Shown: one piece after another, positions 8,509-31,983 of the stretch | Numbering within the stretch: the first letter of the stretch is position 1 | How the letters are laid out: each line of letters begins with the position of its first letter | DNA from: Deltaproteobacteria bacterium | GTDB taxonomy: Bacteria; UBA10199; SPLOWO2-01-44-7 | Length of the DNA: 34,356 nucleotides | Assembly (NCBI GenBank): GCA_016213065.1 | Contig: JACRBV010000061.1 | Location: 1 to 34,356, forward strand | Direction: 5' to 3' | Position numbers and translations under genes: made by a program | Notes under the pieces: generated by a model | Database searches by the model: none | Seen by the model: the letters and a program-made list of their open reading frames with translations, nothing else | What the model was told of the DNA's origin: nothing

Positions 8509-8534
8509 TAAAATAGCACAAAGGAGTTTTTTAA

Positions 8535-10004
8535 ATGCCATCTCTTCCACCGGAACTTGCAAAATTACAGCAGGAGGTCAAGGTTTACGCCAAGGATTTT
8601 GGCCTCGATTTTTTTGAGGTGATTTTCGAGGTGCTTGACTGGAATCAGGTCAACATGGTGGCTTCCTATGGCGGCTTTCCCAATCGTTATCCACACTGGC
8701 GGTTTGGGATGGAATACGAGCGCCTCTCCAAATCCTATGAATATGGTCTCTCAAAGATTTACGAAATGGTTATCAATAATGACCCTTGTTACGCGTATCT
8801 TCTTCATTCCAACAGTCTTGTCGACCAGAAGATGGTGATGGCCCACGTGTATGGACACTGCGATTTTTTCAAAAATAATCTCTATTTTGCGAACACCAAT
8901 CGAAAAATGATGGATGATATGGCCAATCATCGCACCCGTATTGTTCGTGTCATTGATCGTTTGGGAATGGATAAAGTTGAATCTTTTATTGATGCATGTC
9001 TTTCACTGGAAAATCTCATCGACTATAATCTTTTGATGGATGCAAAATCGCAGACTGAACCCGAACAAGAAATCCACCCGGATTCCGTCCGGCTTCGTTC
9101 CAAACCCTACATGGAAAAATTTATCAACCCGCCCGAATTTTTGGCGGCGGAGCGTCTTAAACTGGAAGAAGAAGCGAAAGCCAGACATCATATTCCGGAA
9201 AAACCTCAGAAAGATATTTTGGGTTTTCTGTTGAAACAGGCACCGCTGGAACATTGGGAAGCCGATGCCCTCTCCATCATCCGCGAAGAAACCTACTACT
9301 TTGCCCCGCAAGGGCAGACAAAGGTGATCAATGAAGGATGGGCCACTTTGGTACACAGCAAAATCATGACAGAGAAGGCTTTGAAACCCTCTGAACTAAT
9401 TGATTATGCCGATCATCATTCGGGGACTGTGGCAATGCAACCGGGTCAGATCAATCCATACAAAATAGGACTTGAGTTGCTACGTAACATTGAAGAGCGG
9501 TGGAACAAGGGGCAGTTCGGCAAGGAATACAGTGAATGTAATGATATGCGGGAGAAAAAAAACTGGGACCGAAAGCTGGGACTTGGGCGCGAAAAAATTT
9601 TTGAAGTGCGTAAATTTTATAATGACGTGATGTTTATAGATGAATTTTTAACTCCGGAGTTTTGCGCCGAACATAAAATGTTTGTTTACGCATTCAATGT
9701 GAGCGCGGACCGCTATGAAATTGCGACGCGTGAATTCGAAAAAATCAAACAACAGCTTCTCTTTCAACTCACCAACTTTGGTTATCCCATCATTAACGTG
9801 GTCGACGGCAATTATAAAAATCGCTCCGAGCTTTTGCTCAAACATAATCATGAAGGCGCAGACCTGAAAATGGATTGGGCCAAGGAAACTTTGAAAGCCT
9901 TGTTCAGAATCTGGAAACGCCCGGTTCGTATTGAGACCATCATGGAAGGGGCTCCCAAAATTCTCTCCTTCGACGGCATCGAACACCAAGAAGCCAGACC
10001 TTAG
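8535..10004 (+). CDS. spoVR: SpoVR family protein
   Basis: A 489-aa cytosolic protein of the SpoVR family (E. coli YcgB), the third member of the PrkA/DUF444/SpoVR module. Its molecular activity is unknown; in Bacillus it affects spore cortex formation, but the family is widespread in non-spore-formers. Seen: the N-terminal block VYAKDFGLDFFEVIFEVLDWNQVNMVAS, RYPHWRFGMEYERL, the motif VMAHVYGHCDFFKNN with clustered His and Asp, HRTRIVRVID, and the internal NEGWATLVHSKIM. Length matches the family. The start is well supported by AAAGGAG at 8520-8526, eight bases before the ATG. It lies 73 bp behind the DUF444 gene with a two-hairpin repeat between them. The next 166 bases hold no gene. Confidence 0.96.
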   Translation: MPSLPPELAKLQQEVKVYAKDFGLDFFEVIFEVLDWNQVNMVASYGGFPNRYPHWRFGMEYERLSKSYEYGLSKIYEMVINNDPCYAYLLHSNSLVDQKMVMAHVYGHCDFFKNNLYFANTNRKMMDDMANHRTRIVRVIDRLGMDKVESFIDACLSLENLIDYNLLMDAKSQTEPEQEIHPDSVRLRSKPYMEKFINPPEFLAAERLKLEEEAKARHHIPEKPQKDILGFLLKQAPLEHWEADALSIIREETYYFAPQGQTKVINEGWATLVHSKIMTEKALKPSELIDYADHHSGTVAMQPGQINPYKIGLELLRNIEERWNKGQFGKEYSECNDMREKKNWDRKLGLGREKIFEVRKFYNDVMFIDEFLTPEFCAEHKMFVYAFNVSADRYEIATREFEKIKQQLLFQLTNFGYPIINVVDGNYKNRSELLLKHNHEGADLKMDWAKETLKALFRIWKRPVRIETIMEGAPKILSFDGIEHQEARP

Positions 10005-13965: not shown

Positions 13966-15279
13966 ATGTTTAGAGATATTTTAAATGAATTGGAACAATG
14001 GAAAATCCATCCATTGAGAAAGCCCCTTGTTTTAAAAGGGGCAAGACAAGTGGGTAAATCATGGGCGGTTCAAGAATTTGGAAAAACTTTTTCCTCGTTT
14101 GTTTCGATCAATTTTGAAAAAGAAAAAGACGCTAGGATTTTTTTTGAGGGCGACATTAGAATCGCTGATCTCATTGACCGCCTCTCGCTTTATTCGGGGA
14201 AAAAAATTATTCCCGGTGAGACTCTCCTGTTCTTCGATGAAATTCAGGATTGCGAAAATGCAATTGCATCCCTGCGCTATTTTAAGGAAGAACTTCCCGA
14301 TCTCCACGTTATTGCCGCGGGTTCCTTGATTGATTTTGTTCTGGAAAAAACCGGTTTGCCGGTCGGTCGTGTGCAATTTTTGCATCTTTTTCCAATTTCC
14401 TTTGGGGAATACCTGATCGCCATCGGCAGGGATGATTTGCGGCAAAATATTTTAACATCCGAAGTTGATCCGGTGATTCATCATCAAATTCTTGAACAAT
14501 TAAAAACCTATATGTGCATTGGCGGCATGCCAGCAGTGGTTCAGGCATGGATTAGTTACAAAGACATAATGTTGTGTCAGGAGGCACAGGATGAAATCAT
14601 CAATACCTATCGTCAGGACTTCATCAAATATGCCAGGCGCCAACAAATAGAATATGTTACGAAGGTTTTTGACGCGATTCCTCTCCAGCTTGGCAGGAAA
14701 TTTAAATACACGAACGTCGACCCGGATATGAATTTGCAACCAATAAAAAATGCACTTTCTCTTTTGGAAAAGGCAGGCATTGCTTTGCCAGTTTATCATT
14801 CTTCTGGTCAAGGAGTGCCTCTGGGGGCCGCAAAAGACACAAAGAAGTTCAAGATTTTTTTCTTCGATGTCGGGCTTGCACAGAGAATATTAGGTCTCGA
14901 TTTGAAGAGCTGGGTGGTCATGAAATTGAAAATTGCAAATATAGGTGCGATTGCAGAGCAACTTGTAGCCCAAGAGTTTATGGCCTACTCGCCGCCAAAG
15001 ATAAGACAAGAACTCTATTACTGGCACAAGGAATCTCCATCGAGCAATGCTGAAGTCGATTTTTTGTTTGTAAAAGGCGGGGAGATAGTTCCGGTGGAAA
15101 TCAAATCTGGCGTGCGCGGGGGCTTGAAAAGCATGCAGATATTTTTAGATACACATCCTGCCTCCAAATATGGACTAAAAATCTCCGAGAACCAATTTTC
15201 CTACCATTCAAAAATCAGAGAAATCCCGCTGTATGGAATCGAAGCGTGGTTGAAAGGCGACTCAATCAAGAAAAATTAA
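13966..15279 (+). CDS. DUF4143 ATPase with nuclease-like C-terminal domain (copy 1)
   Basis: A 437-aa protein of the AAA_14/DUF4143 family (COG1373), common in archaea and bacteria, with no settled function. Seen: P-loop GARQVGKS at 25-32, Walker B LLFFDEIQ around 87-94, AAGSL (sensor-1 like), LPVGRVQFLHLFPISFGEYL, a middle winged-helix-like part, and a C-terminal PD-(D/E)xK-like pattern with Asp365 in AEVDF and EIKSG at 378-382. The residues for ATP binding and for a possible nuclease are intact. It is clearly paralogous to the gene at 27597. The stop overlaps the stop of the convergent M16 gene within TTAA. The 122 bp upstream are AT-rich, with TAACATGTTGTTA just before the start and no other gene. 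Confidence 0.93.
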   Translation: MFRDILNELEQWKIHPLRKPLVLKGARQVGKSWAVQEFGKTFSSFVSINFEKEKDARIFFEGDIRIADLIDRLSLYSGKKIIPGETLLFFDEIQDCENAIASLRYFKEELPDLHVIAAGSLIDFVLEKTGLPVGRVQFLHLFPISFGEYLIAIGRDDLRQNILTSEVDPVIHHQILEQLKTYMCIGGMPAVVQAWISYKDIMLCQEAQDEIINTYRQDFIKYARRQQIEYVTKVFDAIPLQLGRKFKYTNVDPDMNLQPIKNALSLLEKAGIALPVYHSSGQGVPLGAAKDTKKFKIFFFDVGLAQRILGLDLKSWVVMKLKIANIGAIAEQLVAQEFMAYSPPKIRQELYYWHKESPSSNAEVDFLFVKGGEIVPVEIKSGVRGGLKSMQIFLDTHPASKYGLKISENQFSYHSKIREIPLYGIEAWLKGDSIKKN

Positions 15280-26120: not shown

Positions 26121-26288
26121 TGTCATTCCGGCGAAGCTTGTCCCTGCAGGCAGTAAGCAGGGAGCCGGAATCCAGACGTCGTCCCGACCCCGTATCGTAG
26201 TACGAGGCAGGCTCCAGTCGGGAACCAGAAATGAAAGGTTGGATCCCTGCTGGAGTTTACCCCTGCGGAGGCAGGGGCAGGGATGACA
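26121..26288. repeat. 168-bp composite element of three hairpins
   Basis: Ends are TGTCAT (26121-26126) and ATGACA (26283-26288). Hairpin 1: ATTCCGGC with GCCGGAAT and inner TCCCTGC/GCAGGGA. Hairpin 2: CCCGAC with GTCGGG and inner TCGTA/TACGA. Hairpin 3: ATCCCTGC with GCAGGGAT and inner CCCTGC/GCAGGG. The style (TCATTCC..GGAATCCAG..GGGATGACA) is a REP-like type widespread in bacteria. Its right end supplies an in-frame ATG at 26283 upstream of pfkA. Confidence 0.85.
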
Positions 26289-26315
26289 AAAAGTATATTT
26301 TTCAGCACTCTCTTT

Positions 26316-27410
26316 ATGAAAAAAACCAAAAAAATTGCAATTTTAACCGGTGGGGGTGATTGCCCGGGTTTGAATGCCGTTATTTGCGCTGTCACGCGCA
26401 GTGCTATTAATGATTATGGTTGGGAGGTGTGGGGGATTGAAGACGGGTTTGAAGGGTTGATTGAAGGGCGCCTGTCGCCTCTCACATCGGACCGCGTTTT
26501 TGACATCATGCCGCTCGGGGGAACCATTTTGGGGACCACCAACCGGAGCAGTCCGTTCTTTTATTCAAAAGATGGGGGCAAGACTCCGTACAGAGATACT
26601 TCCAAACAAATTTTGCAACTCTTCGAAAGAAATGGACTCAATGCCCTTGTGTGCGTGGGCGGGGAAGGAACTATGTCTTTCGCAAAAAGATTTTCACAAG
26701 AGGGTTTGCCCATCGTCGGTATTCCAAAAACAATTGATAATGATGTCCCCGGCACGGAGCGAACGGTTGGTTTTTATTCCGCGGTTCACACCGCCACCGA
26801 GGCAATTGACAAACTCCACACCACGGCGGCTTCTCACCACCGTGTGATGGTGATTGAGGTGATGGGCCGTGATGCCGGTTGGTTGGCGCTTGCTTCCGGT
26901 TTAGCAGGCGGAGCCAACATTATTCTAATTCCGGAACTTCCGTTTGATTTGGAGAAAGTTTATCAACGCGTGAAGCGGCGTTCTCTGCGCGGTCGTCGTT
27001 TTACCATCGTGGTGGTTGCCGAAGGGGCTTTTCCCGCGGGCGGAAAACAGGTTGTGCAAAAAAGAGTGAAGGATGTGAGTCAACCGATCCGTCTGGGAGG
27101 AGTTGCCCATTGGCTCGCGGCGCAAATTGAAAAAAATACCGATGTGGAAGCAAGGGCCGTTGTGTTGGGGCATGTGCTACGCGGCGGAAGCCCCATTTAT
27201 CAGGATCGCATTTTGGCAACTTCCTTTGGTTGTGAAGCCACCCACCGGCTTGCCATGGGAGAGAGCGCGATGATGGTTGGCTGGCACGAGGGAAAACATA
27301 TTTCGATCGCGCTGAAAAATTTGGCCCCGGGCATGAGACACGTCCCCAAAAATCACGACTGGATTGCCACCTGCCGTTCCATGGGTTTTACTTTTGCCGA
27401 AGCTGATTGA
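26316..27410 (+). CDS. pfkA: 6-phosphofructokinase, probably ATP-dependent group III
   Basis: A 364-aa glycolytic enzyme that phosphorylates fructose 6-phosphate. Seen: IAILTGGGDCPGLNAVI, VCVGGEGTMSFA, GIPKTIDNDVPGTERTVGF with the catalytic TIDND, the MGRDAGWLA substrate block, and VLGHVLRGGSP. In the E. coli numbering the residue after GGE is Gly (position 104), which favours ATP, while the PKTIDND lysine (position 124) is shared with PPi enzymes. The Gly/Lys combination is that of group III enzymes such as the ATP-dependent actinobacterial ones, so ATP is predicted but not certain. The start is chosen at the ATG 26316 by family fit; an ATG at 26283 lies in repeat DNA. No clear ribosome site is seen for either. 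The 3' end overlaps a pseudogene fragment on the other strand. Confidence 0.93.
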   Translation: MKKTKKIAILTGGGDCPGLNAVICAVTRSAINDYGWEVWGIEDGFEGLIEGRLSPLTSDRVFDIMPLGGTILGTTNRSSPFFYSKDGGKTPYRDTSKQILQLFERNGLNALVCVGGEGTMSFAKRFSQEGLPIVGIPKTIDNDVPGTERTVGFYSAVHTATEAIDKLHTTAASHHRVMVIEVMGRDAGWLALASGLAGGANIILIPELPFDLEKVYQRVKRRSLRGRRFTIVVVAEGAFPAGGKQVVQKRVKDVSQPIRLGGVAHWLAAQIEKNTDVEARAVVLGHVLRGGSPIYQDRILATSFGCEATHRLAMGESAMMVGWHEGKHISIALKNLAPGMRHVPKNHDWIATCRSMGFTFAEAD

Positions 27411-27501
27411 CGACTTCCGGTGCGAGAGACAGATCATGCTGTTTCGCAAGATTGGCGAGACTTTCCCACGTTCCAACATCCGACTAGCTGAAAGGTGCTT
27501 C
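27388..27501 (-). pseudogene. Remnant of a manC 3' end
   Basis: The minus strand reads EAPFS, a TAG stop, then SDVGTWESLANLAKQHDLSL, then APEVVNQLRQK and TAA. This matches the C-terminus of the intact guanylyltransferase at 28989 (EAPFTWSDVGTWESLANLAKQH...) until the last residues, which differ. About 62 bp are shared with only five mismatches, including a run of 35 identical bases. The TGG codon has become TAG. The end overlaps the pfkA stop by 23 bases, which suggests that the original gene once ended here. It is separated from the intact copy by the DUF4143 gene. Confidence 0.85.
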
Positions 27502-27547
27502 CGTTTCAGCGTATTGTATAAAGTATACCTTCTTTAATACAAAAAAA

Positions 27548-27576
27548 TTGCAAAGAATACATTCTTTTGGTAAGAT
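27548..27576 (+). promoter_or_regulatory. Promoter with palindromic operator upstream of DUF4143 gene 2
   Basis: TTGCAA at 27548-27553 and TAAGAT at 27571-27576 with a 17-bp spacer. The spacer holds AAAGAATACATTCTTT (27552-27567), a near-perfect dyad with 7-bp arms. Upstream, GTATAAAGTATAC is another dyad. A repressor at the first dyad would block polymerase. Confidence 0.55.
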
Positions 27577-27596
27577 AGGAGTGGAAGGATGGATCT

Positions 27597-28955
27597 ATGT
27601 TTTCACGGTCTATTGAAAAATCCTTAATAAATTGGATGAGTTCTGCATCCAGAATGCCTCTTGTCATCAGGGGGGCAAGGCAAACTGGCAAAACCACGCT
27701 TATAAGGGAGTTTGGAAAGAGATTTGATCAGTTCATCGAACTGAACCTTGAAAAAGAGGCAAACAAAAGGATTTTTTCAAATGTAGGGGATATCAAAGAT
27801 GTAATCCTGTCCATTGAATCCGTCACAAATAAAAAAATAGTTCCGGCCAAGACACTTCTCTTTTTGGATGAGATACAAAACTGTCCCACCGCTATAACCA
27901 TGCTCCGCTATTTTTATGAAGACGCACCCGACCTGTATGTCATTTCCGCTGGTTCGTTGCTTGAGGTCAGGATGAAAAAAGAAGGATGGTCTTTTCCCGT
28001 CGGCAGGGTGGAATTTCTGTATCTCTTTCCTGTCCTTTTTGAAGAATTTTTAAACGTGCTCGGTGAAGTTTCCATTTTGGATTTCCTTCGCAGTTTTAAA
28101 CTGGGCAAAAAAATTCCCGATGCGGTGCACGACAAACTGATTGGATTACTTGTGGACTATATGACAGTTGGGGGGATGCCACAGGCCGTCAATGAATATC
28201 TCGTCAACAAAAGTTTTATCCCTGCAAGAAGGGTTCATGAGATATTGACGGCTACATTTAAGGACGATTTTGCCAAATATTCCAGTGAGACATCGGCAGA
28301 ATATTTATCAGAAGTGCGGAATCGCATCCCATTTGAAATAGGCAATCGCATCAAATATTCAGCCATCGGTGGGCTTCATTCTCGTTCGCAATATATCTCC
28401 AAGGCATTTGATGTTCTGCATTCTGCGATGCTTATAGAAAGGGTTTTTCCGACCACGCAGGTAAAACTGCCGCTTGTCAAAAAACCCAAATCTGCCCCCA
28501 AGTCTATTTTTGTTGATATTGGGTTGTGCACGCATCTGCTCAAACTAACACGTGACCAGATCAAGGAGAGGCTGATTGACCCTCGTTACAGCGGTGCACT
28601 TTGTGAACAATTCGTGGGGCAGGAATTACTGGGTATGGATTTTAACAGACGAAACGAGCTTTACTTTTGGGTCAGGGAAGAAAAAGGGACAAGCTCTGAA
28701 CTGGATTATATTATGCAAACAGGCAATGAGATATATCCCGTTGAAGTGAAATCGGGGAGTCATGGTTCTCTCAAGTCATTGCACCAATTTTTGTCCCGCA
28801 GTGGAGGCAAGATCGGGATCAGATTATTTCAAGGATCAGCTCAAATAGAAGAACATGACGTCATTCTTTCTCCCGCCCAAAACCGTCTGCATTACCGGTT
28901 GGTTTCGCTCCCGTTGTATCTGACTTTCAGGTTGGCATCTCTTTTGGGACAATAG
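27597..28955 (+). CDS. DUF4143 ATPase with nuclease-like C-terminal domain (copy 2)
   Basis: A 452-aa AAA_14/DUF4143 protein, paralogous to the one at 13966. Seen: P-loop GARQTGKT at 26-33, Walker B LLFLDEIQ with D91 and E92, SAGSLLE, FPVGRVEFLYLFPVLFEEFL, and the C-terminal nuclease-like pattern with Asp370 in SELDY and EVKSG at 383-387. Both the ATPase and the nuclease-like residues are intact. The start ATG has GGAAGGA seven bases before it. A promoter with an operator-like palindrome lies directly upstream. The gene ends 34 bp from the end of manC on the other strand. Family function is unsettled; roles in archaeal stress and in toxin-like or defence contexts have been suggested by others, but nothing here decides. 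It sits alone between copies of the manC 3' end. Confidence 0.93.
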   Translation: MFSRSIEKSLINWMSSASRMPLVIRGARQTGKTTLIREFGKRFDQFIELNLEKEANKRIFSNVGDIKDVILSIESVTNKKIVPAKTLLFLDEIQNCPTAITMLRYFYEDAPDLYVISAGSLLEVRMKKEGWSFPVGRVEFLYLFPVLFEEFLNVLGEVSILDFLRSFKLGKKIPDAVHDKLIGLLVDYMTVGGMPQAVNEYLVNKSFIPARRVHEILTATFKDDFAKYSSETSAEYLSEVRNRIPFEIGNRIKYSAIGGLHSRSQYISKAFDVLHSAMLIERVFPTTQVKLPLVKKPKSAPKSIFVDIGLCTHLLKLTRDQIKERLIDPRYSGALCEQFVGQELLGMDFNRRNELYFWVREEKGTSSELDYIMQTGNEIYPVEVKSGSHGSLKSLHQFLSRSGGKIGIRLFQGSAQIEEHDVILSPAQNRLHYRLVSLPLYLTFRLASLLGQ

Positions 28956-28988
28956 CGTATAGGAGACTCAAGTCTTGCAATGTCCATT

Positions 28989-29873
28989 TTACACAGAGCG
29001 GGTTTCTAAAATCTCCAGTACTTCTTTGGAAAGTTTCAGAGAGTGTTGTTTCGCAAGATTGGCGAGACTTTCCCACGTTCCCACATCCGACCATGTGAAG
29101 GGTGCTTCCACGACAAGCAGGTCTTTTGACTTTTCCATGATGGCGTAGTCAATCGAGATCGCCGGAGTTTTTTCAAAGAAGTCTTCAATCCGCGTTTCCT
29201 TTTCAAGCAAGGAATAAATTTCGGGCATGAATTTTTGAAAAGCCTCCACCATTTTTGCGACGGGAAAAATAAAAGTGCCGCCGTTCCAGAAATAATTTCC
29301 GTTTTCCAAAAAATGTTTTGCCGTTTTCGCATCCGGTTTTTCCACAAACTCTTTAACCCTGCTGTCCTCCTTATGCAGATAGCCATGATGGGTGGAGGCA
29401 AAAGTGGGCGGAATGCCAATCGTGACAATGGCATTCTGTTTTTCGGCCATTTCAAATGCCTGACGGATGGTTTTACAAAAGACCCCTTCAGGCGTGATGA
29501 ATTGATCCGAAGGAATGGCCATCAAAACGGCGTCTTTGTTTCTCTGCATGAGCTGAAAGCTAACCCAAGCAAGGCAGGGCGCTGTGTTTTTTTTTTGAGT
29601 CTCTCCAAAAATTTGTGAATCGTTTAAAAAAGGCAGTTGTTCTTTCACAAGAGGGACGTAACGCCGGTTCGTGGCGACGAGAATGTTTTGGGGTTCAAAA
29701 AGCTGGCTGAGCCTTTCAACGCTTTGCTGTAACAGCGTTTTTTCCGGGTGGATCAATTTAAGAAATTGCTTCGGTTTTTTAGGCGTGCTTAAAGGGGCAA
29801 ACCGTGTTCCTTCCCCCCCCGCCATAATCAAGGCGTAGAAGGCATTTGACCGTTGCGTTCTGTTTTGCGGCAT
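28989..29873 (-). CDS. manC: Mannose-1-phosphate guanylyltransferase
   Basis: A 294-aa nucleotidyltransferase that makes GDP-mannose from GTP and mannose 1-phosphate for surface glycans. Seen: LIMAGGEGTRFAPLSTPKKPKQFL (nucleotide-binding signature, with FAPLS in place of the usual FWPLS), IPSDQFI, FVEKPDAKTA, NGNYFWNGGTFIF, SIDYAIMEKS and TWSDVGTWESL. It is the short form without the C-terminal phosphomannose isomerase domain. The frame is open to 29912, but the ATG at 29873 has AGGA at about nine bases and leaves only 15 bp to the divergent thioredoxin-like gene. The last 40 residues overlap the duplicated region at 29047, and the final 15 (SLKLSKEVLEILETRSV) differ from the remnant near 27400, which hints that the tail was exchanged. 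Confidence 0.93.
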   Translation of the reverse strand: MPQNRTQRSNAFYALIMAGGEGTRFAPLSTPKKPKQFLKLIHPEKTLLQQSVERLSQLFEPQNILVATNRRYVPLVKEQLPFLNDSQIFGETQKKNTAPCLAWVSFQLMQRNKDAVLMAIPSDQFITPEGVFCKTIRQAFEMAEKQNAIVTIGIPPTFASTHHGYLHKEDSRVKEFVEKPDAKTAKHFLENGNYFWNGGTFIFPVAKMVEAFQKFMPEIYSLLEKETRIEDFFEKTPAISIDYAIMEKSKDLLVVEAPFTWSDVGTWESLANLAKQHSLKLSKEVLEILETRSV

Positions 29874-29888
29874 GTTAGCGGACGTCCT

Positions 29889-30443
29889 ATGGCATTTCAG
29901 CCCAAAACGCAACTTTTAGCTTTTGGCGCTACCGCTCCCGATTTTTCCCTTCCGGGTGCCGATGGTCAAACTTATCATCTCCACGATTTCAAAAACAAAG
30001 CCAAAGCATTTGTCGTGATTTTCGCCTGCAATCATTGTCCCTATGTTTTGGCTTACGAAGACCGAATGATTCAAATTTGCAAAGACTATCGTTCAAGCGG
30101 AGTCGCCTTTTTTGTCATCAACGCCAATGAAACTAAAAATTATCCCGAAGATTCGTTTGAAAAAATGAAAGAAAAAACAAAACTTAAAAAACTTCCCTAC
30201 CCTTATTTGCGGGATGAAGATCAAAAAGTGGCAGAAAGTTTTGGGGCAGGAGCCACGCCGGAAGTTTTTCTTTTTGATGGAGACTTAAAACTTGTCTATC
30301 ACGGTCGGATTGATGACAACTGGCAGGAGACAACCAAAGTTACACAACACTATTTGCGGGATGCGATCTCTGCGTTACTGGCAGGCAAAGAAATTGCAAA
30401 AAAAGAAACACATCCCATCGGTTGTTCCATCAAGTGGGGGTGA
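29889..30443 (+). CDS. Thioredoxin-fold AhpC/TSA-type protein
   Basis: A 184-aa protein of the thioredoxin family that carries the CNHCPYV motif, a subgroup related to peroxiredoxins and cytochrome biogenesis thioredoxins. Seen: APDFSLPGADGQTYHLHDF, VVIFACNHCPYVLAYEDRM with the redox pair CxxC, FFVINANE, and the cis-proline region GATPEVFLFD. It ends in THPIGCSIKWG, typical of this subgroup. No signal peptide is visible, so it is likely cytosolic. The start is at ATG 29889 and no ribosome site is clear. The divergent manC starts just 15 bp away, so promoters of both genes must overlap the other coding region. After the stop there is a two-hairpin repeat, and 64 bp later the next gene. Confidence 0.9.
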   Translation: MAFQPKTQLLAFGATAPDFSLPGADGQTYHLHDFKNKAKAFVVIFACNHCPYVLAYEDRMIQICKDYRSSGVAFFVINANETKNYPEDSFEKMKEKTKLKKLPYPYLRDEDQKVAESFGAGATPEVFLFDGDLKLVYHGRIDDNWQETTKVTQHYLRDAISALLAGKEIAKKETHPIGCSIKWG

Positions 30444-31086: not shown

Positions 31087-31091
31087 AGCCT

Positions 31092-31164
31092 GCGCCCGTA
31101 GCTCAACGGATAGAGCATCTGGCTTCGAACCAGAGGGCTGGGAGTTCAAGTCTCTCCGGGCGCA
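31092..31164 (+). tRNA. tRNA-Arg(TCG)
   Basis: A complete cloverleaf of 73 bases: acceptor GCGCCCG/CGGGCGC, D arm GCTC/GAGC, anticodon stem TCTGG/CCAGA with loop CTTCGAA, anticodon TCG at 31125-31127, variable loop GGGCT, T arm GGGAG/CTCTC with TTCAAGT. The discriminator is A31164. CCA is not encoded. It reads CGA arginine codons. It lies 6 bp after the exported protein gene, so it might be co-transcribed, and is followed by a terminator. Confidence 0.97.
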
Positions 31165-31165
31165 C

Positions 31166-31348: not shown

Positions 31349-31690
31349 ATGAATGTTGAGTTTCTGATATTGCCGAATGGACGTTGTCCTGTCGAAGAAT
31401 TTCTTGAAGAGCTGGATGATAAATCTCTTGCGAAGGTTTACAGGCTCATTGAAATTCTCAAGAAGCAGGGGAGTTTGCCCTTTCCTCATGCAAGAAAAAT
31501 GACGGGTTTGAAAGGTTTATGGGAATTGAGAATTTTATCGAAAGGAATGGCTGTCCGGGTGTTTTATGTTTATTGGGAGAAAAACAGGATTGTATTAGTT
31601 TCCGGCTTTATCAAGAAATCGCAGGAAACGCCAAAAAGAGAAATTGATAGAGCTATGCAATATTTACAAGAATCAGGAGTCAAACCATGA
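31349..31690 (+). CDS. HigB/RelE-type toxin (phage Gp49-like family)
   Basis: A 113-aa ribonuclease toxin candidate. Seen: VEFLILPNGRCPVEEFLEEL, LPFPHARKMTGLKGLWELRI, the motif AVRVFYVYWEKNRIVLVSGFIKKSQETPKREIDRA, which is the core of the PF05973 RelE-like family, including the LWELR and F-x-KK-x-x-x-TP blocks. Toxins of this family cut mRNA at the ribosome and are encoded before an XRE antitoxin. Here the next gene is exactly that, with a four-base ATGA overlap. There is no ribosome site; the mRNA is probably leaderless. No mobile element is adjacent. Active residues are intact, so it should be functional if expressed. Confidence 0.92.
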   Translation: MNVEFLILPNGRCPVEEFLEELDDKSLAKVYRLIEILKKQGSLPFPHARKMTGLKGLWELRILSKGMAVRVFYVYWEKNRIVLVSGFIKKSQETPKREIDRAMQYLQESGVKP

Positions 31691-31983
31691 AAACAAAACC
31701 TATTTCAGGACCGTTGGCCAAAAGAATAAAGCGAAAGAGTTTTGCCGAGGCTTATGAAGAAGCAGGTTATTTGCTGGATATCGGGGTGATGATTGCCCGT
31801 TTACGTGACAAAGCGGGCTTCTCCCAAAGCCAACTGGCAAAGAAGATAGATACGACACAATCCGTTATTTCACGAATTGAAAATGGAAATCAAAATCTGA
31901 CTGTCAAAATGCTGGCTAAGATTGCGGATGTTTTGCACTGTGAATTATCGATGCAACTCAAGCCAACCAAACTGGCGGCATAA
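31687..31983 (+). CDS. HigA-type XRE antitoxin
   Basis: A 98-aa protein with a helix-turn-helix of the XRE/Cro family at about 36-90: IGVMIARLRDKAGFSQSQLAKKIDTTQSVISRIENGNQNLTVKMLAKIADVLHCEL. The N-terminus up to 35 (KTKPISGPLAKRIKRKSFAEAYEEA) is basic and probably binds the toxin. It should repress its own promoter through the inverted repeat at 31324-31339. It follows the toxin in the order typical of higBA. Five bases after its stop lies the ATG of the broken DUF167 gene. Confidence 0.92.
   Translation: MKTKPISGPLAKRIKRKSFAEAYEEAGYLLDIGVMIARLRDKAGFSQSQLAKKIDTTQSVISRIENGNQNLTVKMLAKIADVLHCELSMQLKPTKLAA

Follow-up and report, generated by a model that had tools for sequence, protein, structure and literature searches.

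A lone DUF4143 gene within a duplicated manC 3' end and a recurrent footprint of flanking gene-end repeats around DUF4143 genes

Homology-facilitated illegitimate recombination (HFIR), a route of one-sided DNA capture, has been established experimentally in transformation and conjugation (PMC3240628) and has been suggested to explain T6SS modules and rhs tails (PMC5361080). Repeats are also found around small variable segments of bacterial genomes, flanking about 10-18% of them in E. coli, S. aureus and S. pyogenes (PMC2884548). PDC-S01 is a candidate single-gene system whose members are reported to combine ATPase domains with the PD-(D/E)XK superfamily, with validation pending for most such defence candidates (PMC12988326). 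PDC-S01 ranks fourth among prokaryotic defences in one survey and is among the commonest defence candidates. The literature searched does not explain how such a lone, recombinase-free gene spreads, and nothing was found in it on the insertion route or promoter boxes of PDC-S01.

We analysed a 34,356-nucleotide stretch of DNA from a Deltaproteobacteria bacterium (hereafter the window), which is one contig (JACRBV010000061.1) of a draft assembly of 155 contigs (GCA_016213065.1). A gene at 27597..28955 on the plus strand encodes an AAA+ ATPase with AAA_14 and DUF4143 domains and a conserved, nuclease-type D...E-x-K motif. The protein matches the PADLOC model of PDC-S01 over its full length (residues 1-450, E=5.4e-151), and the gene is thus a candidate single-gene phage defence of the PDC-S01 type. 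Its structure model has a mean pLDDT of 89.6, with best matches, all partial, to ORC/Cdc6- and RuvB-type AAA+ proteins; no solved structure was matched by sequence. The window holds a second DUF4143 gene (13972-15192, 38% identical), around which no flanking repeats were detected. About a dozen DUF4143 genes are present in the 1.8 Mb of this genome, which also contains a decayed relic (L130, G000:C136, about 8514-8812) that keeps residues 20-47 and 385-450 only, is about 55% identical to the window protein and has a TAG in its first piece.

The DUF4143 gene is the sole gene between two direct repeats of a manC 3' region. It belongs to an inserted unit (27503..28988, plus strand) made up of a promoter region, the gene itself and 33 bp to the manC stop codon. 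Sequence comparison places the repeats, which have the same orientation, at 27430..27502 and 29037..29109 (73 bp, 88% identity; E about 2e-23 when the two flanks are compared), with a 62-bp core (27440-27501 and 29047-29108) containing five mismatches. The right copy lies in frame within a live manC on the minus strand (28989..29912), of the mannose-1-phosphate guanylyltransferase type (NTP_transferase in Pfam, GMP/ManC-like in NCBIfam). The left copy is part of a dead stub (27388..27502, minus strand) that reads EAPFS*SDVGTWESLANLAKQHDLSLAPEVVNQLRQK* and is killed by the TAG; it retains a full tail and its own stop codon (27388-27390), which overlaps the end of the convergent gene pfkA (26283..27410, plus strand; Pfam PFK, E=2e-103). 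Both coordinates and sequence agree with the original prediction, which had described a lone DUF4143 gene between a live right and a dead left copy of a 62-bp repeat with about five mismatches. The repeat is not dispersed, as the interval occurs once in its own genome, where manC is present as one live copy and the stub fragment. The unit contains no recombinase gene, no terminal inverted repeats were found at its ends, and no extended similarity was seen past the left joint (27502); DNA homology to the nearest relative starts at 27519. Further along the window, a small gene pair at 31349-31983, downstream of a tRNA-like stretch near 31090-31165, resembles a RelE/HigB-type toxin and an HTH antitoxin, judging from the translations of the open reading frames.

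Could this arrangement be an artefact of assembly (a chimeric contig from a strain mixture) or a matter of chance repeats? The window does come from a draft assembly, but its left joint offers no homology for an assembler to follow, the stub bears mutations of its own, a stop among them, and many independent genomes show this anatomy as well (see below), making such an origin very improbable.

Comparison with relatives reached the family level, not the genus. A scan of GTDB contigs with manC gave no close relatives, and the same-family genomes came from a separate genome search. In three of the five (G003, G002 and G005), an aminotransferase-like gene, pfkA and manC are found in the order of the window, followed in G003 and G002 by a thioredoxin-like gene, as in the window. 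Each of the three has a single manC, with neither a DUF4143 gene nor the inserted unit at the pfkA-manC site, which bears out the view that a cassette was inserted into the 3' part of manC. The pfkA neighbourhood is ancestral, and manC of G002 and G005 overruns the end of pfkA like the dead tail of the window, indicating that the dead copy is the native end in its native place. A tail of the APEVVNQLRQK type had been expected at an empty site; taken literally this did not hold, the relatives' tails differing from both copies, whereas the position overlapping pfkA did prove to be ancestral. Relatives lacking the DUF4143 gene and still having both manC copies, named in advance as evidence against insertion, were looked for among the same-family genomes and not found.

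Beyond the repeat, the live manC continues unbroken into a different manC-type tail (28989..29036, minus strand). This tail (SLKLSKEVLEIL...) resembles those of relatives, HLKLSPEVMRLL and GIELSAEVIPLL. Its score, added up over four manC tails, was reached by only 2 of the 116,009 peptides of this length that its genome yields, and the tail is therefore not random insert sequence. On sequence grounds, the live tail is a genuine manC tail that differs from the native one, in line with the earlier proposal that incoming DNA had replaced it. A manC 3' end may have come in with the inserted DNA; alternatively, the whole 3' end was duplicated by a first insertion in a donor and reached the present genome through a later exchange. 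Because identity between the copies is about 92% in the repeat core and only about half in the tails, there may have been one crossover near the KQH codons or a two-step event.

The same footprint was sought around 187 DUF4143 genes, taken partly from the window's own class and partly from a domain-wide set of 385 genomes, and sampled by best score and not at random. For each gene, 500 bp on either side were compared using a strict, composition-corrected score, and direct repeats were accepted at E<=1e-4. This test replaced an earlier null of mispaired flanks, which ignored the composition shared within a genome, and it removed compositional matches such as L301 and L315. Significant direct repeats enclosed 23 of the 187 DUF4143 genes and 2 of 501 ordinary genes (Fisher p=6e-12), the resulting 12% being approximate since stub decay lowers it and unrelated repeats raise it. 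The ordinary genes encoded 300-600 aa and comprised 1/124 positives from the same genomes, 0/340 from GTDB neighbourhoods and 1/37 from around manC. Inverted repeats were found by the same test at 3 of the 187. The footprint is general for DUF4143 genes, as had been anticipated, with the caveat that several of the 23 repeats are short and may be unrelated repeats. It is not universal, as the three closest DUF4143 homologues (L135-L137) have no flanking repeats.

Where its source was clear, the duplicated piece was almost without exception the terminal 3' portion of an adjacent gene. It corresponded to residues 342-362 of 363 of alanine dehydrogenase (ald) in L161, to residues 168-184 of 184 of an Nfu/NifU-like protein in L325 (53/55 bp identical, ending at the stop codon), and to the ends of a 114-aa gene (L146), a HIT protein gene (L147), an Mpo1-like gene (L194), a 105-aa gene (L328) and a secreted-protein gene (L248). 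Once, in L262, it was a 5' end, that of an amidohydrolase gene, whose dead copy holds the native upstream region and whose site is empty in the congener G385. No DUF4143 gene was present in the loci examined at the nfu, HIT and ald genes of relatives. The repeats often stop at a stop codon, and in L329 they are identical over 26/26 bp. The suggested analogy with tRNA-targeting islands is not supported, as the target differs each time (manC, ald, nfu, HIT, Mpo1-like, the amidohydrolase 5' end and others) and neither a recombinase, terminal inverted repeats nor a fixed att site was found in the footprint cases.

Several loci were not counted as gene-end cases, namely the tandem paralogues L178 and L275 and the repeat-like L240, L246, L249 and L323. 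In L222 (1974-4236, G037:C216), a 488-aa gene lies between direct repeats of about 260 bp or more. The repeats form a tandem gene pair, as the one on the right is a gene for a 112-aa P-II-like protein and the one on the left duplicates it almost completely (92% identity). A partial tandem duplication of a HIT gene around a run of N in L343 (G004:C57, 54904-55469) is probably a scaffolding gap, not an insertion.

Such recurrence might reflect an active protein, whose ATPase/nuclease would open host gene ends so that its own gene is copied in together with the neighbouring gene end, as a new kind of one-gene mobile unit carrying its own operator. The D...E-x-K motif fused to an AAA+ ATPase, the 12% footprint rate and the occurrence of single genes, each with a conserved promoter region of its own, at a wide range of sites are consistent with this. 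However, flanking repeats are about as frequent around Fic genes (4/27), which lack a nuclease of this kind, the DUF4143 cases have no fixed ends, terminal inverted repeats or shared target, and repeats also flank the 10-18% of small variable segments in the three well-studied species mentioned above. An active role is thus improbable. Since Fic genes show the footprint too, DUF4143 genes are probably cargo, not agents, and behave like other gained segments, agency being possible but unsupported. Accordingly, of the two roles originally offered for DUF4143 genes, cargo or agent, the former is retained; the latter is unproven and probably wrong, given the Fic rate and the donor- and recipient-like character of the copies (see below). 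Genomes may acquire other single-gene systems by a comparable route. HipA and N6/N4 methyltransferase genes gave no flanking repeats (0/26 each); they often have partners, and their flanks are therefore not a fair border of the unit. Direct repeats at the lone Fic genes L362, L375 and L364 measure about 290, 110 and 32 bp, respectively, that of L362 being largely non-coding.

To what extent the two copies of a gene end differ as alleles bears on their origin. Across the five youngest coding cases, the copies differ at 28 sites, 21 of which are third codon positions (p=8e-6 relative to an expected one third), an excess that may partly stem from evolution of the live copy after duplication. Because such later evolution might explain part of it, L262 was polarised with the congener G385, and all five changes private to its dead copy were at third positions (5/5, p=0.004), four being silent and one being the stop. 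The private changes of the window's dead copy are a mix of silent and damaging ones. Overall, it appears that both copies were functional alleles while they diverged and that one died only afterwards, which would favour recombination with donor DNA over plain duplication of the target. Repeats ending at a stop codon would likewise be expected if donor and recipient share only coding sequence.

Plain duplication would mean that a widely staggered break left two copies of the gene end, both from the recipient, one of which decayed, the window's tail being duplicated or exchanged later. The same pattern has been described for restriction-modification genes of H. pylori (PMC1643837), and long duplication of this kind accommodates repeats of about 20-200 bp with variable length and many different targets, the near-identity of the copies in L325 and L329, and a window cargo that lies between long direct repeats of a target that is single-copy in relatives. 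It is at odds with the two different tails of the window, both manC-like, with the third-position excess, including the 5/5 in the polarised dead copy of L262, and with the frequent ending of repeats at a stop codon. We consider it unlikely, if less so than an active DUF4143 protein.

We favour, with moderate confidence, capture of donor DNA via HFIR or an equivalent one-sided event, with the same process acting elsewhere and DUF4143 genes as its cargo. Donor DNA with a DUF4143 gene beside the donor's manC 3' end would have entered the lineage; one end would have undergone homologous recombination within manC, in its conserved WSDVGTWESLANLAKQH stretch, and the other would have been joined without homology inside the 3' region of the recipient's manC. 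In the product, the lone defence-type gene would separate a live manC, now ending in a donor tail, from the dead stub against pfkA. Other DUF4143 genes would have been placed beside host gene ends by the same process, the gene being carried passively. Capture is supported by the empty sites, the manC-type live tail, the absence of homology past the left joint, the generality of the footprint and the third-position excess. Against it count the need for a crossover near the KQH codons or for two steps, the mixed private changes in the window's dead copy, the near-identical repeats of L329 and L325, which plain target duplication would also give, and the fact that no donor genome was found. The expected donor would have a DUF4143 gene 33 bp from a manC ending in KLSKEVLEILETRSV. 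Searches of plasmids, phages and viral contigs for a vehicle turned up no DUF4143 relatives other than distant ones, with identities below 60% throughout. Targeting would not be needed to explain the preference for 3' ends, since a joint within a gene is tolerated only if the incoming DNA brings an intact end, and a joint near the 3' end leaves the promoter in place.

The promoter region of the unit is a lead separate from the question of insertion. The window gene and its homologues from other families have conserved upstream DNA in common, which in the window contains two similar boxes 32 bp apart, a probable operator (27520..27567, plus strand; 27520-27535 AAAGTATACCTTCTTT and 27552-27567 AAAGAATACATTCTTT). 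A 14-bp box recurring upstream with at least 12 matches was found at 41 of the 187 DUF4143 genes (22% versus 3% in shuffles). The spacing was 32 or 33 bp in 20 of these 41, that is, at 20/187 DUF4143 genes versus 1/237 ordinary genes (p=5e-7). The sequence of the box varies from gene to gene while its spacing is constant, which suggests that the paired boxes are a tandem operator through which the encoded protein may regulate its own gene.

The recurring footprint suggests how PDC-S01-type genes enter genomes. Being directional (live end, dead stub, foreign tail), it makes the route testable and points to recipient and donor alleles; it also offers a count of recent gains and predicts clean loss via recombination between the repeats. 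For annotation, truncated gene ends beside DUF4143-type genes are to be read as scars, and a housekeeping protein can carry a C-terminal tail of foreign origin.

Compared with known systems, the inserted gene matches PDC-S01, the single-gene phage defence candidate of PADLOC, at E=5e-151. Like integrase-borne islands at tRNA and gene 3' ends, the insertion shows a 3' end rebuilt by incoming DNA with the old end displaced; different from these, it has no recombinase gene and no fixed site, and one case concerns a 5' end. The target duplication by restriction-modification genes (Nobusato et al. 2000, as reported in PMC1643837) is alike in its long target-derived repeats and empty relatives, whereas here the cargo is DUF4143/PDC-S01, donor and recipient alleles are likely and mostly 3' ends are involved. 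The examples of HFIR (T6SS effector-immunity modules and rhs 3' ends) share the gained DNA and the displaced old 3' material left downstream, together with what would here be a homologous anchor and a non-homologous joint. They differ in that the anchor here would be an unrelated neighbouring gene that changes from case to case, with a lone defence candidate as the cargo, across many lineages. The process of capture is thus a known one, and its systematic link to the DUF4143 family appears to be new.
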